NCBI GenBank assembly: GCA_022446795.1
Contig: JAKVBX010000021.1
Location: 1-52,841, forward strand
Length of the DNA: 52,841 bases
Direction of reading: 5' to 3'
Source of the DNA: Phycisphaerales bacterium
GTDB taxonomy: Bacteria > Planctomycetota > Phycisphaerae > Phycisphaerales > SM1A02
Shown here: positions 32,671 through 52,217 of the stretch, piece after piece
How the letters are laid out: each line of letters begins with the position of its first letter
Numbering within the stretch: position 1 is the stretch's first letter
Notes under the pieces: model-generated
Told to the model about the DNA's origin: nothing
Databases searched by the model: none
The model's input: the letters and a program-made list of their open reading frames with translations, nothing else
Translations under genes and position numbers: made by a program

Positions 32671-33870
32671 TCAATCCAGGAAGTCGGCGGCCTGGAGACG
32701 CTCGGGGACATAGACCTCCGAGACGTAGGAGATGTCCTTGGTGATCAGGGACTCCACCTCCATCTTGAAACCGTTGGCGAGCATCTTCCGGATCTCGATC
32801 TGCCACGGCTTGCGATCCAGGAACCAGGGATAGTCGGCGATCTGCTTGGCCCGGGCGATGTCCCGCTCATTGAGGGCGATGCGGACATCCGGCGACAGTT
32901 CGCAGTCGTCGTAGTCGCCGGCACGAATCCCGATGAACTTCGCCTCGGGGACGGCCATGCGTTTGCTCTCGAAGGCCAGGTTGATCGAGCCCTGCTTGAT
33001 CACGCTGTAGATGTAGTGCCCCCAGGGGTCGCAATCGAGCAGGCAATACACGGGCAGGCCGAGTTCCTGGTTCAACCGGGCCAGCAACCGGCGGACGCCC
33101 CGGGGCGGTTGCCCGGATCCCTCGGTCAGGATGCAGTTGTGCTGTTCCCAGAAGCGGTCCTCGTTGAACCGGCTCCACACCGTGTCCTTCTCGACGTGGA
33201 GGACGAAGTCAGCCTCGCACTTCTCGAACTGGATCACGCTGGGTTCGCAGATACTGGGGATGGCATAGCCGCCGGTCCCCATGCGTCGGCAGTCGATCTC
33301 GTCGCCGTTGTCCCGGATGGTGATGTTGCCCACCATCGTGCCACGCTTCTTGGCGAAGACATGCAGTTCCTCGCGAAGACCGTCGAGAGTGACCTCGAGG
33401 TCCTCCAGGATGCCGTCGGACTCGGACTGGTCGTTGAACGTCTTCTCGTTCGTGCCCTCGATGGTGTGCAGCGACATGTAGTACATGCCACGAAGGCTGA
33501 GCGTCTTGTCGGCCTGGATGAGCTCGCGGCAGCCCTTGGACAGCAGGATGCTCTGCATGAACTTGCGGGCCTGGCCGACATTGAACAGCGTCCGTCGCTG
33601 GGTGTTGTCGCCCATCTCCAGGATCCGCTCGCGGTGGTTGAACTTCATGTTCGACACCGAGCGGATGGGGATATCGAGGAAGGGGTCCTTCTGGGCCAGG
33701 CTCGACTTGACGACGGTCGTGCAGAGCTTCTCGATCTTCCCAGTGGTTTCCTTGTCCCGCTTGGCGGACACGGTTCGACCGGTCGTCTTCTTGCGGGAAG
33801 GGGACTTCCTGGTCGTCTTCTTCGTGGCCTTCTTTGCCGCGGTCTTGCGGGCCGTCTTCTTGGTGGCCAT
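32671..33870 (-). CDS. top6A: DNA topoisomerase VI subunit A
   Basis: A 399-residue Spo11/TopVIA protein, the DNA-cleaving subunit of a type IIB topoisomerase. A winged-helix domain holds the catalytic tyrosine in 'LSLRGMYYMS' (Tyr130/131), and the Toprim domain has 'CLLDCDPWGHYIY' with the DxD metal motif. Ahead of it lies an unusual 45-residue Lys/Ala/Thr-rich tail (TKKTARKTAAKKATKK...) like histone H1 C-termini. ATG 33870 has GGAG 7 bases upstream. The gene follows subunit B after 20 bases on the same strand. Topoisomerase VI is typically archaeal and plant, with sporadic bacterial holders. Confidence 0.93.
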   Translation of the reverse strand: MATKKTARKTAAKKATKKTTRKSPSRKKTTGRTVSAKRDKETTGKIEKLCTTVVKSSLAQKDPFLDIPIRSVSNMKFNHRERILEMGDNTQRRTLFNVGQARKFMQSILLSKGCRELIQADKTLSLRGMYYMSLHTIEGTNEKTFNDQSESDGILEDLEVTLDGLREELHVFAKKRGTMVGNITIRDNGDEIDCRRMGTGGYAIPSICEPSVIQFEKCEADFVLHVEKDTVWSRFNEDRFWEQHNCILTEGSGQPPRGVRRLLARLNQELGLPVYCLLDCDPWGHYIYSVIKQGSINLAFESKRMAVPEAKFIGIRAGDYDDCELSPDVRIALNERDIARAKQIADYPWFLDRKPWQIEIRKMLANGFKMEVESLITKDISYVSEVYVPERLQAADFLD

Positions 33871-33890
33871 CTGGCAACTCCGATCGGGAC

Positions 33891-35801
33891 TCAACGGGTC
33901 TTGCGACTGGTCTTCCTGGTCTTCTTCTTCGAGGCTTTCTTCGCGGTCTTCTTCCGGCTGGACTTCTTGCCTGGGTCGCGGCGGAGCCGGGACCGAGCGT
34001 CACCGAACAGGTCATCGGTGGCCTCGTCGTCGTCGATCGCGGGAATGGCGTCTTCGACAATGATGACCTGCTCGTCATCATCCAGGCGGCTGGTCTTGCG
34101 GACGACTTGGCCGTCCTCGTCGAGCTTGTTGTCTGCTTCAGCGGTCTTCTTGGCCGCCTGTTTCTGCAGCGCGTCGTAGATCTTCTTGGCGTCCGAGCCG
34201 GTGACGGCCTCGCATGCCGTGGCAATCTCACCGATGTACCGCTCGAAGATGCTGCGACGTTCGGCTTCCTTCTTCATCCGGGATCGGCGGCGGAGATAGA
34301 TGCCGAGCTTGCGGCCGCATTCCTGCAGCGCCAGCCTCATTTCCTTCCGGATCTCGTCGTAGTCGGCGATGGCTTCCTTGGATTCGCTGGTAAAGGGCAC
34401 CCACACGCTGGCCATGTGAATCAGCACGACCAGTGGTCCAGTCGGCAGGGCATTGCGAGGCTGCGCCAGTCCATAGTTCTTCCAGGACGTTTCCATCACG
34501 GCCTTGAAGGACGAGCAGGCGGACTGCTGATACAGCAGCGGCACCCGGTTGGCGAAACGCAGGACCCGGGCGGATTCATCAGAGGACAGTTGCCCGCCAT
34601 AGGCGATGGCGACCTCGATCTGGAAGGGGTTCCCGCGGTAGACCGCCGGTGGACGGGTTGCCGCGGAGAAGAACTCGGCTTTCACTTCCTTGAGCAGTCC
34701 GGCCAGCATGGCCCGCGAGCCGATCGGCACCAGGCAGTCGGTGGGGGGCGCCGTGATCCGCGTGTCCTGGATCGCCTTGTACAGGGCCTCCGCTTCGGAA
34801 TGTCCCATCTTGCTGACGTAGGTCTGCGGACCCTTGAGGTTGGAGTTTGGCGCCGTCTTTGCAGCGGTCTTGCACAGTTCGCTGGCCTTCTGCTGACCGA
34901 CGCGGCAGAAGTCGTTCTGGAGGAATCCCCCGAGCTTGGTGGACTCCGTCCGCTCGATCATCTGGATCAGCGTCCCCAACTCGATTCCCTTGGGATGGGG
35001 CTTGATCTCCTTGGCCTCTTCGGGCAGTTCATCCATGCCCCGGGGAAACTCGATCGTTTCGTTGGCCGGGTTGATGTAGACGAACCACGCGTGGGGATTG
35101 GCGATCGCGGTCTGCTCGAGGTATTCGTCGACCGACTGCTTGCCCTTCTGGTACCGGCCTTCCATCTCGATGGTGACCATCGTGCCGTGGCCCTCGGGGA
35201 AGTACTTGTCCGCGTCTGGACTCTCCCGGTCGGTCACGACCTCGGGCCGGTTCTTGGACGTGTCGATCTTGAGCGTGACCTCGTGGGCGGGCTTCCGCTT
35301 GGTCTTGGAGATGATCTTGACCGGCTTGCCGGTGGTCATGAGGCCATACATGCCGGCCGCGGAGATCCCGATGCCCTGCTGGCCACGGGACATCTTCATG
35401 CGGTGGAACTTGGACCCGTAGAGCAGCTTGCCGAAGATGTTGTCGATCTGCTTGCGGACGATGCCCGGGCCGTTGTCTCGGACGGTGACCTTGAACCGGG
35501 TCTCCTCCAGTTGCAGGAGCTTGACCTCGATCTCGGGGAGCACGCCGCCTTCCTCGCAGGCGTCCAACGCGTTGTCCACGGCTTCCTTGATCGTCGTCAG
35601 CAGGGCCTTGCGGGGATTATCGAAGCCCAGCAGGTGGCGGTTCTTGGCGAAGAACTCGCTGACGGAGATTTCCCGCTGCCGAGCCGCCATTTCTTCGGCG
35701 CTGGCACGGGACCTGGATTTCGTCTTCTTTTTCGCTGCGGCCTTTGCCATGTTCTTACGGCCCGTCCCTGGGCCCCCCGTAGGAGCCGTGGCGATGCTCA
35801 T
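33891..35801 (-). CDS. top6B: DNA topoisomerase VI subunit B
   Basis: A 636-residue ATPase subunit. The GHKL fold shows 'TTIKEAVDNALDACEE', 'VRDNGPGI' and 'GQQGIGISAAGMYG'; the H2TH and transducer segments follow ('PTDCLVPIGSRAMLAGLL', 'NRVPLLYQQSACSSFKAV'). Both ends carry extra charged tails: 'MAKAAAKKKTKSRSRAS' near the start and an acidic stretch followed by a Lys/Arg/Ser-rich tail of about 30 residues at the end. The start at 35801 has GGAGG 8 bases upstream. It is the first gene of the top6B-top6A operon and pairs with subunit A to relax and decatenate DNA. Confidence 0.94.
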   Translation of the reverse strand: MSIATAPTGGPGTGRKNMAKAAAKKKTKSRSRASAEEMAARQREISVSEFFAKNRHLLGFDNPRKALLTTIKEAVDNALDACEEGGVLPEIEVKLLQLEETRFKVTVRDNGPGIVRKQIDNIFGKLLYGSKFHRMKMSRGQQGIGISAAGMYGLMTTGKPVKIISKTKRKPAHEVTLKIDTSKNRPEVVTDRESPDADKYFPEGHGTMVTIEMEGRYQKGKQSVDEYLEQTAIANPHAWFVYINPANETIEFPRGMDELPEEAKEIKPHPKGIELGTLIQMIERTESTKLGGFLQNDFCRVGQQKASELCKTAAKTAPNSNLKGPQTYVSKMGHSEAEALYKAIQDTRITAPPTDCLVPIGSRAMLAGLLKEVKAEFFSAATRPPAVYRGNPFQIEVAIAYGGQLSSDESARVLRFANRVPLLYQQSACSSFKAVMETSWKNYGLAQPRNALPTGPLVVLIHMASVWVPFTSESKEAIADYDEIRKEMRLALQECGRKLGIYLRRRSRMKKEAERRSIFERYIGEIATACEAVTGSDAKKIYDALQKQAAKKTAEADNKLDEDGQVVRKTSRLDDDEQVIIVEDAIPAIDDDEATDDLFGDARSRLRRDPGKKSSRKKTAKKASKKKTRKTSRKTR

Positions 35802-35843
35802 TGGTGCCTCCTCGGACTTCCCTGTCCGATCCGCTGCCGGCTC

Positions 35844-49623: not shown

Positions 49624-52217
<2,594 letters not shown>

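Follow-up and report, generated by a model that had tools for sequence, protein, structure and literature searches.

A stretch of 52,841 nucleotides from a Phycisphaerales genome (assembly GCA_022446795.1, contig JAKVBX010000021.1), hereafter the window, carries an operon for topoisomerase VI (TopVI), and both subunits of the enzyme, TopVIA and TopVIB, bear lysine-rich tails. A survey of the planctomycetes shows that TopVI and topoisomerase IV (topo IV) largely swap for one another in this phylum. We consider it probable, though not assured, that TopVI is a dedicated decatenase in the place of topo IV, that its tails tether it to DNA, and that an LF motif in TopVIB docks a partner.

The operon lies intact on the minus strand at 32671-35801 of a Phycisphaerales-type planctomycete, where a complete top6B-top6A pair had been predicted. 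top6B (33891..35801, minus strand) encodes the 636-residue TopVIB, with a GHKL ATPase, H2TH, transducer, stalk, and C-terminal extension; top6A (32671..33870, minus strand) encodes the 399-residue TopVIA, with a winged-helix domain that holds the catalytic tyrosine and a Toprim domain. The top6B stop and the top6A start are 20 nt apart. TopVIB matched the Pfam families Topo-VIb_trans (2.8e-60) and HATPase_c, and TopVIA matched TOP6A-Spo11_Toprim (2e-56), TP6A_N, and Topo_VI_alpha. In NCBIfam, TopVIB gave a full-length equivalog match to PRK04184 (TopVI subunit B; 689 bits, cut-off 274), and TopVIA matched PRK04342.1-2 (527 bits, cut-off 465), which the library names 'topoisomerase IV subunit A'.

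Multiple sequence alignments show that E73, N77, D109, G111, G143, and K475 are invariant among 60 TopVIB sequences, as are W440 and Y443 of the WKxY pair, and that Y131, E227, D279, and D281 are invariant among 62 TopVIA sequences. From family knowledge we take the TopVIB residues to be those of the ATPase and, for Lys475, the transducer, and E227, D279, and D281 to be the Toprim acids; Tyr131 (codon 33478..33480, minus strand) is presumably the catalytic tyrosine, by the Spo11/TopVIA motif. The original prediction hinged on retention of these catalytic residues, and Tyr131 and the Toprim acids were all kept. The TopVIB stalk reads WKNY at residue 440, and a basic loop at residue 219 reads KGKQ, i.e., of the KGRR type in kind though differing in letters. 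AlphaFold2 (AF2) models had mean pLDDT values of 81.8 (TopVIB) and 90.8 (TopVIA). In Foldseek searches, the best matches of TopVIB were M. mazei TopVI-B chains (507 columns, 48% identity), and the presence of H2TH was judged from this whole-chain fold match. The top eight matches of TopVIA were TopVI-A chains (29-37% identity, M. mazei first), and Spo11 chains ranked 9-10 (16-18% identity). Sequence comparison and structural modeling thus confirmed that the operon encodes a genuine TopVI, predicted to be intact. It resembles the archaeal enzymes of M. mazei and S. shibatae in domain order, catalytic residues, WKxY stalk motif, and KGRR-like loop, and it differs from the meiotic Spo11/TopoVIBL complex in that TopVI-A chains outrank Spo11. 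It is likewise set apart by description from topoisomerase VIII, a free or integrated plasmid enzyme (PMC11302465), by its stable ndk neighborhood and its top6B equivalog match.

TopVI and topoisomerase IV across planctomycetes

We searched 292 genomes of the phylum, each at least 85% complete, for TopVIB and for GyrA/ParC-family genes (PF00521) in the same set. TopVIB was matched in 157 genomes. A single PF00521 gene was found in 140 of these, at least two in 16, and none in one, compared to one gene in 52, at least two in 81, and none in two of the 135 genomes without TopVI. This association gave a Fisher p of 2e-20 by genome, where genomes share ancestry, and p = 1.7e-5 by majority state of each family (38 families TopVI-positive with a single gene, 5 TopVI-positive with multiple genes, 14 TopVI-negative with a single gene, and 20 TopVI-negative with multiple genes). 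TopVIB was matched in 98 of the 101 sampled genomes of the window's own family (marginal in G024, E = 9.4e-4; partial in G032). The two partial matches in G032 (L201, L202) are on opposite strands of one 3.94 Mb contig, separated by about 50 kb, and represent a broken gene or an assembly error.

The same alternation was observed at closer range. Within the window's order, all seven genomes of family f4 lack TopVI and have two PF00521 genes, all sampled genomes of f1 (10), f3 (3), and f5 (2) have TopVI and one gene, and so do seven of the eight genomes of f2, the eighth having neither. Both states occur side by side in families f19, f35, and f62; family f74 is mixed in part, with a split gene in one of two TopVI-negative genomes and two matches in one TopVI-positive genome.

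We then typed PF00521 proteins by the GyrA box. Among 15 of the 81 TopVI-negative genomes with multiple genes, 14 had one boxed GyrA and one protein without the box; the fifteenth had a split gene (G368). Among 20 of the 140 TopVI-positive genomes with a single gene, drawn from those with listed positions, a GyrA box was present in 19, and the remaining locus (L286) gave no GyrA/ParC open reading frame (ORF) by the pattern used. Five of the 16 TopVI-positive genomes with multiple genes were inspected: G205 had two boxed proteins, the sole protein read in G243 and in G254 lacked the box, the protein read in G263 was boxed, and in G329 one of two loci was boxed and the other gave no ORF. The source genome of the window (3.54 Mb in 78 contigs, 95.96% complete) has one PF00521 gene, which bears GyrA boxes; no PF00521 gene without a GyrA box, i.e., no candidate topo IV subunit, was found in it, in a search that did not extend to ParE. 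A gyrB gene (49624..52140, minus strand; 838 residues; Pfam DNA_gyraseB, DNA_gyraseB_C, Toprim, and HATPase_c) lies in the window beside the TopVI operon, in agreement with the claim that type IIA and type IIB enzymes occur in one cell. Given the gene counts and the GyrA-box typing, TopVI is found mostly in genomes that lack topo IV.

Several observations weigh against a strict exchange. Shared ancestry inflates the genome-level association, and families are also incompletely independent. Families f13 and f54 break the alternation rule, and TopVI occurs with at least two PF00521 matches in all f24, f30, and f39 genomes, in all six TopVI-positive f54 genomes, and in two of three f61 genomes. 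The 52 TopVI-negative genomes with one PF00521 gene indicate that gyrase alone can suffice. Split genes such as that of G368 can inflate the counts. A published survey stresses that 7 of its 17 bacteria, all seven outside the planctomycetes, have TopVI together with topo IV (PMC11302465). As a separate observation, all sampled genomes of f27 (12), f36 (2), and f56 (2) and 17 of the 22 of f45 lack both TopVI and a second GyrA/ParC gene, and decatenation in these genomes may fall to gyrase alone. A second PF00521 match was found in five f45 genomes.

The survey of Allen and Maxwell (2024; PMC11302465) had reported gyrase and TopVI without topo IV in a few planctomycete families, five by our recognition, and had suggested a decatenase role. 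That survey covers 17 bacterial species, compared to 292 genomes of one phylum here; its main text contains no word beginning planctomycet, lysine, or tail. It reports gyrase, topo IV, and TopVI together only in Pseudomonadota and Terrabacteria; our 16 TopVI-positive planctomycete genomes with at least two GyrA/ParC-family genes are putative exceptions. In Planctopirus limnophila, paralogous DNA topoisomerase subunits are listed as essential, without names (PMC10632474).

Basic tails and the C-terminal extension of TopVIB

The enzyme is of a known type, TopVI, with basic tails that, by composition, have an H1-like lysine-rich character. TopVIA begins with a tail of 45 residues (33736..33870, minus strand) that contains 18 K/R (13 K, 5 R) together with 11 T and 6 A, in line with the Lys/Ala/Thr-rich start that had been predicted; all 13 lysines are encoded by AAG, at 64% GC. 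The three features predicted for TopVIB were also present, i.e., a basic N-terminal patch at about residues 15-33 (35703..35759, minus strand), an acidic stretch at about residues 583-597, and a C-terminal lysine/arginine-rich tail at residues 607-636 (33894..33983, minus strand) with 17 K/R among the last 30 residues. Tails of both subunits are predicted to be disordered: AF2 pLDDT fell below 50 at TopVIA residues 1-3 and 5-19, with a modeled helix from residue 36, and at TopVIB residues 1-6, 8-33, 36-43, and much of 595-636 (the C-terminal tail lies in a block of pLDDT 44-49). In these predicted disordered tails the planctomycete enzyme is unlike archaeal TopVI. The TopVIB N-termini of two haloarchaea are acidic and lysine-poor, as is one haloarchaeal TopVIA N-terminus, a thin comparison; in two Protein Data Bank TopVIA chains, chain residue 31 is the first aligned, opposite residue 57 of the window's TopVIA (P0002).

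We compared 80 non-redundant planctomycete complexes (TopVIB alignment identity below 80%), i.e., the 68 complexes used for phylogeny and 12 more. These fall into two deep TopVIA lineages, clade I, which includes the window, and clade II. A basic segment was defined as 20 residues with at least 40% K/R. N-terminal tail lengths are estimates, with starts picked by a simple rule; one over-long TopVIA tail (L179) was shortened to 60 residues, and in 13 complexes the TopVIA N-terminus was trimmed to a chosen methionine. Basic segments were present in 41 TopVIA N-terminal tails, 15 TopVIB N-terminal tails, and 31 TopVIB C-terminal tails. At least one was found in 52 complexes; the 28 with none comprise 13 of the 48 clade I and 15 of the 32 clade II complexes. 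All basic TopVIB C-terminal tails belong to clade I (31 of 48); the counted TopVIB C-terminal end of clade II is 9-16 residues long and basic in none of 32. In relatives at least 80% identical, TopVIA mostly starts MAKKK, MAKKT, or MATKK and the tail contains 31-44% K/R. Basic tails therefore recur in close relatives, whose lack of them would have pointed to misread starts or drift. They are no general adaptation to the planctomycete nucleoid, as had also been suggested, because 28 of the 80 complexes have no strongly basic segment. Some TopVIA tails of the clade II kind reach 85-119 residues and a net charge of +29 to +51 (L112, L128, L129, L131, L132, L136). These longest tails occur in f54 and f24 genomes with at least two GyrA/ParC-family matches; exceptions to this location are the clade I loci L061 and L071, with tails of 103 residues each.

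As a genomic baseline we took 250 other ORFs of at least 150 residues (longest non-overlapping, unannotated) from 392 kb of the source genome. An equally basic 20-residue segment was found in 5 of 250 within the first 45 residues and in 6 of 250 within the last 88, and when at least 20% lysine was also required, in one; the baseline comes from one genome and its segment lengths differ from the tail lengths in relatives. Across every frame of the 392 kb, which include the window and amount to 11% of the genome, lysine-rich windows of 35 residues were confined to TopVIA, TopVIB, what we take to be ribosomal L35 and the LepA C-terminus, and one 91-residue ORF. A genome-wide habit of lysine tails was rejected given so few other cases, though one HU-family protein (L231:1498-1857, minus strand) carries a lysine-rich N-terminal tail (MAKKKSRKKTTKKRASATEMK...); the other HU-family protein found in the genome (L230:1477-1791) lacks one. 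No lysine-rich tail was seen in the source genome's TopA. GC content was likewise rejected as a cause: tail basicity did not correlate positively with locus GC (Spearman -0.16, p = 0.16), and in clade I the net charge of the TopVIA tail falls with GC (rho = -0.30, p = 0.04). Three loci (L076, L078, and L101) at first seemed to hold fused B-A genes, an artefact in which the TopVIA match began inside the TopVIB frame; these loci are outside the tree set and their TopVIA tail rows are void. Some long TopVIB frames in the window's family (L195, L196, L198, and others; about 670-850 residues, one 1048) align to the query as several segments interrupted near residues 197-250, a pattern suggestive of lineage-specific inserts.

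Beyond the part that aligns with M. mazei TopVI-B, the C-terminal extension of TopVIB contains two further elements. A VII sequence at residues 579-581 (34059..34067, minus strand) is modeled as a strand (block pLDDT 84-88), and an LF short linear motif at residues 598-599 (34005..34010, minus strand) lies within the acidic stretch (...DDDEATDDLFGD). In 50 non-redundant C-terminal tails of at least 40 residues, after removal of sequences with X, shorter tails, and near-duplicates (85% core identity), LF was present in 43 and V-[IVL]-[IVL] in 40; 500 shuffles per tail gave means of 3.5 (maximum 13) and 4.7 (maximum 11), respectively, and control hydrophobic pairs were near expectation (20 vs 17.2). 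The basic patch follows LF in some lineages and precedes it in others, and LF sometimes stands at the extreme end. This change of order indicates that the patch and LF are two separately kept elements, with a contribution from shared descent. Clade II TopVIB lacks the strand and LF extension. A sliding-clamp-binding reading of LF was rejected, since only 6 of 43 have a Gln three residues ahead of the Leu. Separately, the TopVIB of L190 ends QLQMF and a ParC-like protein of a TopVI-less genome (L268) has EQLQLFD near its end; we take both to resemble the sliding-clamp binding motif.

Two published systems invite comparison. Actinobacterial TopA likewise carries an H1-like lysine-rich extension on a topoisomerase, though it is not type II, has a C-terminal tail only, and owes a measured processivity effect to it, where such an effect in planctomycete TopVI is a proposed one (PMC7398561). 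In gyrase-bearing archaea, lineage-specific C-terminal additions of Top6B occur in at least three lineages and are read as an adaptation to gyrase; the archaeal addition is globular (immunoglobulin-like, in Euryarchaeal group II), whereas that of planctomycetes combines a short strand and a linear motif with a basic tail (PMC9348778). The planctomycete extension may be a further, structurally different gyrase adaptation; clade II, also with gyrase, lacks it. In the open literature, no title or abstract found dealt with bacterial TopVI in relation to basic tails, an LF motif, or exchange of subunits; subscription papers were mostly outside the scope of this search.

Proposed function and alternative explanations

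TopVI of M. mazei is a preferential decatenase of limited processivity that unlinks braids in short bursts and dissociates between them (PMC8837201); it contacts DNA along the bent G-segment through its stalk/WKxY region (PMC5922973). We propose that the operon encodes a working type IIB TopVI, which alongside gyrase would be the dedicated decatenase of this cell, a place that topo IV fills in most bacteria. The tails at the TopVIA N-terminus and at both TopVIB termini would act as non-specific electrostatic tethers to DNA flanking the bent G-segment, and the TopVIB C-terminal tail, which leaves from the DNA-binding stalk, would together with that of TopVIA keep the enzyme close to its substrate from one strand passage to the next. 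Tethering would lengthen residence and so raise processivity and the capture of crossings, comparable to the lysine repeats that confer processivity on actinobacterial TopA (PMC7398561). Through the LF motif the enzyme would dock a partner responsible for its targeting or regulation. In this model we infer that TopVI decatenates in vivo, that the tails bind DNA and affect processivity, and that a partner docks.

Two points weigh against the tether model. The 28 complexes without a strongly basic segment indicate that TopVI works without one, and the basic tails could instead have RNA, polyphosphate, or protein as ligands, or pack against the acidic stretch. We hold it to be doubtful, though the most serious alternative, that the tails are mainly not DNA tethers and serve autoinhibitory pairing with the TopVIB acidic stretch, RNA or polyphosphate binding, or docking to nucleoid proteins. 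Acidic, LF, and basic elements do adjoin in the TopVIB C-terminal tail, and in TopA a joint action of terminal acidic residues and lysine repeats has been proposed (PMC7398561); many basic TopVIA tails, however, have no adjoining acidic element, and the clade II loci L129 and L131 combine very basic TopVIA tails with no TopVIB extension.

Functionless low-complexity drift is a distinctly unlikely origin of the tails. They do differ in length and order and can hardly be aligned, and the 28 complexes without a basic segment fit such drift, but the frequencies in TopVIA N-terminal tails (41 of 80) and in clade I TopVIB C-terminal tails (31 of 48) stand against baselines of 5 and 6 of 250, and lysine is kept at 64% GC with no rise of basicity with locus GC. 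That TopVI makes programmed recombination breaks rather than decatenating is highly improbable: TopVIA is homologous to Spo11, but Spo11 structures are the weaker fold matches and TopVI ranks best, the operon still includes a complete TopVIB whose ATPase and transducer are intact, and presence of the gene alternates with that of topo IV. Finally, the tails can hardly be mis-called starts, for although Met18 is a possible TopVIB start and TopVIB starts differ among relatives, the TopVIA ATG stands close to the TopVIB stop and is followed by the MAKKK, MAKKT, or MATKK sequence in many relatives, Met18 would keep most of the N-terminal patch, and the C-terminal tail is independent of the start.

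Origin and setting of the two subunits

We compared the subunits of 68 complexes with archaeal references, after dropping near-duplicates (80%) and loci without a nearby TopVIA. By BLAST, the best archaeal reference for TopVIA was S. shibatae in all 45 clade I complexes and M. jannaschii in all 23 of clade II, whereas that for TopVIB was M. mazei in all 68, at a mean identity of 47.5% in both clades; the references are few and include no M. jannaschii TopVIB. The window's TopVIA is thus closer to S. shibatae (phmmer, 253 bits vs 164 for M. mazei) and its TopVIB closer to M. mazei (511 bits vs 292 for S. shibatae). A clade II TopVIA scored 365 bits with M. jannaschii and 159 with S. shibatae, and its paired TopVIB 507 bits with M. 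mazei and 318 with S. shibatae.

Topology tests used quick trees with long branches, clade I thinned to 23 rows, four archaeal rows for each subunit, and groups named after the first tree. Forcing the 46 planctomycete TopVIA together lowered the log-likelihood by 73.8 (p-AU = 0.0018), and one clade was rejected. The matching 46 TopVIB form one side of a branch with support of 87, which is not strong. Constraining clade I TopVIB with S. shibatae gave p = 0.55, the tree that held them together being slightly better and the S. shibatae row very long; since this grouping is not rejected, the TopVIB tree alone leaves room for a second transfer. A simple single transfer into the phylum, as had been envisaged, is therefore at odds with TopVIA and compatible with TopVIB. 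At least two transfers from archaea have been proposed for bacterial TopVI (PMC11302465).

The two TopVIA clades set against one TopVIB family suggest that the subunits may be mosaic. Separate replacement is feasible, because the genes for TopVIA and TopVIB are apart in several lineages and yet each of the 15 genomes checked, the source genome included, has one TopVIA. An archaeal donor that already held this A-B pair would also fit. We regard as possible, and advance only tentatively, a fuller history in which the window's lineage acquired its TopVIA from a different archaeal-type lineage and kept its TopVIB, and the mosaic holoenzyme then replaced topo IV and gained DNA-tethering tails and a motif that docks a partner from replication or segregation. 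A phage origin was rejected, with no TopVI match in the phage collection. One IMG/VR contig (L285:420-4164), in which a small ORF separates related top6B and top6A genes, may derive from a host rather than a virus.

The nearest relatives of the locus, among the best 80 of 287, are metagenome-assembled genomes of Phycisphaerales or Phycisphaerae; a divergent ndk is nearby in 57 of the 63 of these near-relative loci with enough upstream DNA. Of the expression signals in the original prediction, the good ribosome site holds for top6B, which has a Shine-Dalgarno sequence GAGGAGG (35807..35813, minus strand) read 5 nt before Met1; the site of top6A is moderate (GGAG, 7 nt before Met1). The promoter that had been assigned to the operon was not recovered, as a sigma-70-type scan gave no minus-strand site, though planctomycete promoters may deviate from that consensus.

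If the mosaic origin is true, TopVIA and TopVIB would be independently exchangeable, which bears on the pairing of Spo11 with a diverged TopVIB-like partner in eukaryotes. What is new beyond the earlier survey (PMC11302465) is the swap between TopVI and topo IV at the scale of a phylum. Repeated swaps with topo IV within families make the decatenase hypothesis for bacterial TopVI directly testable; the tails and LF motif would provide handles on the adaptation of an archaeal enzyme to a gyrase-bearing bacterial chromosome.

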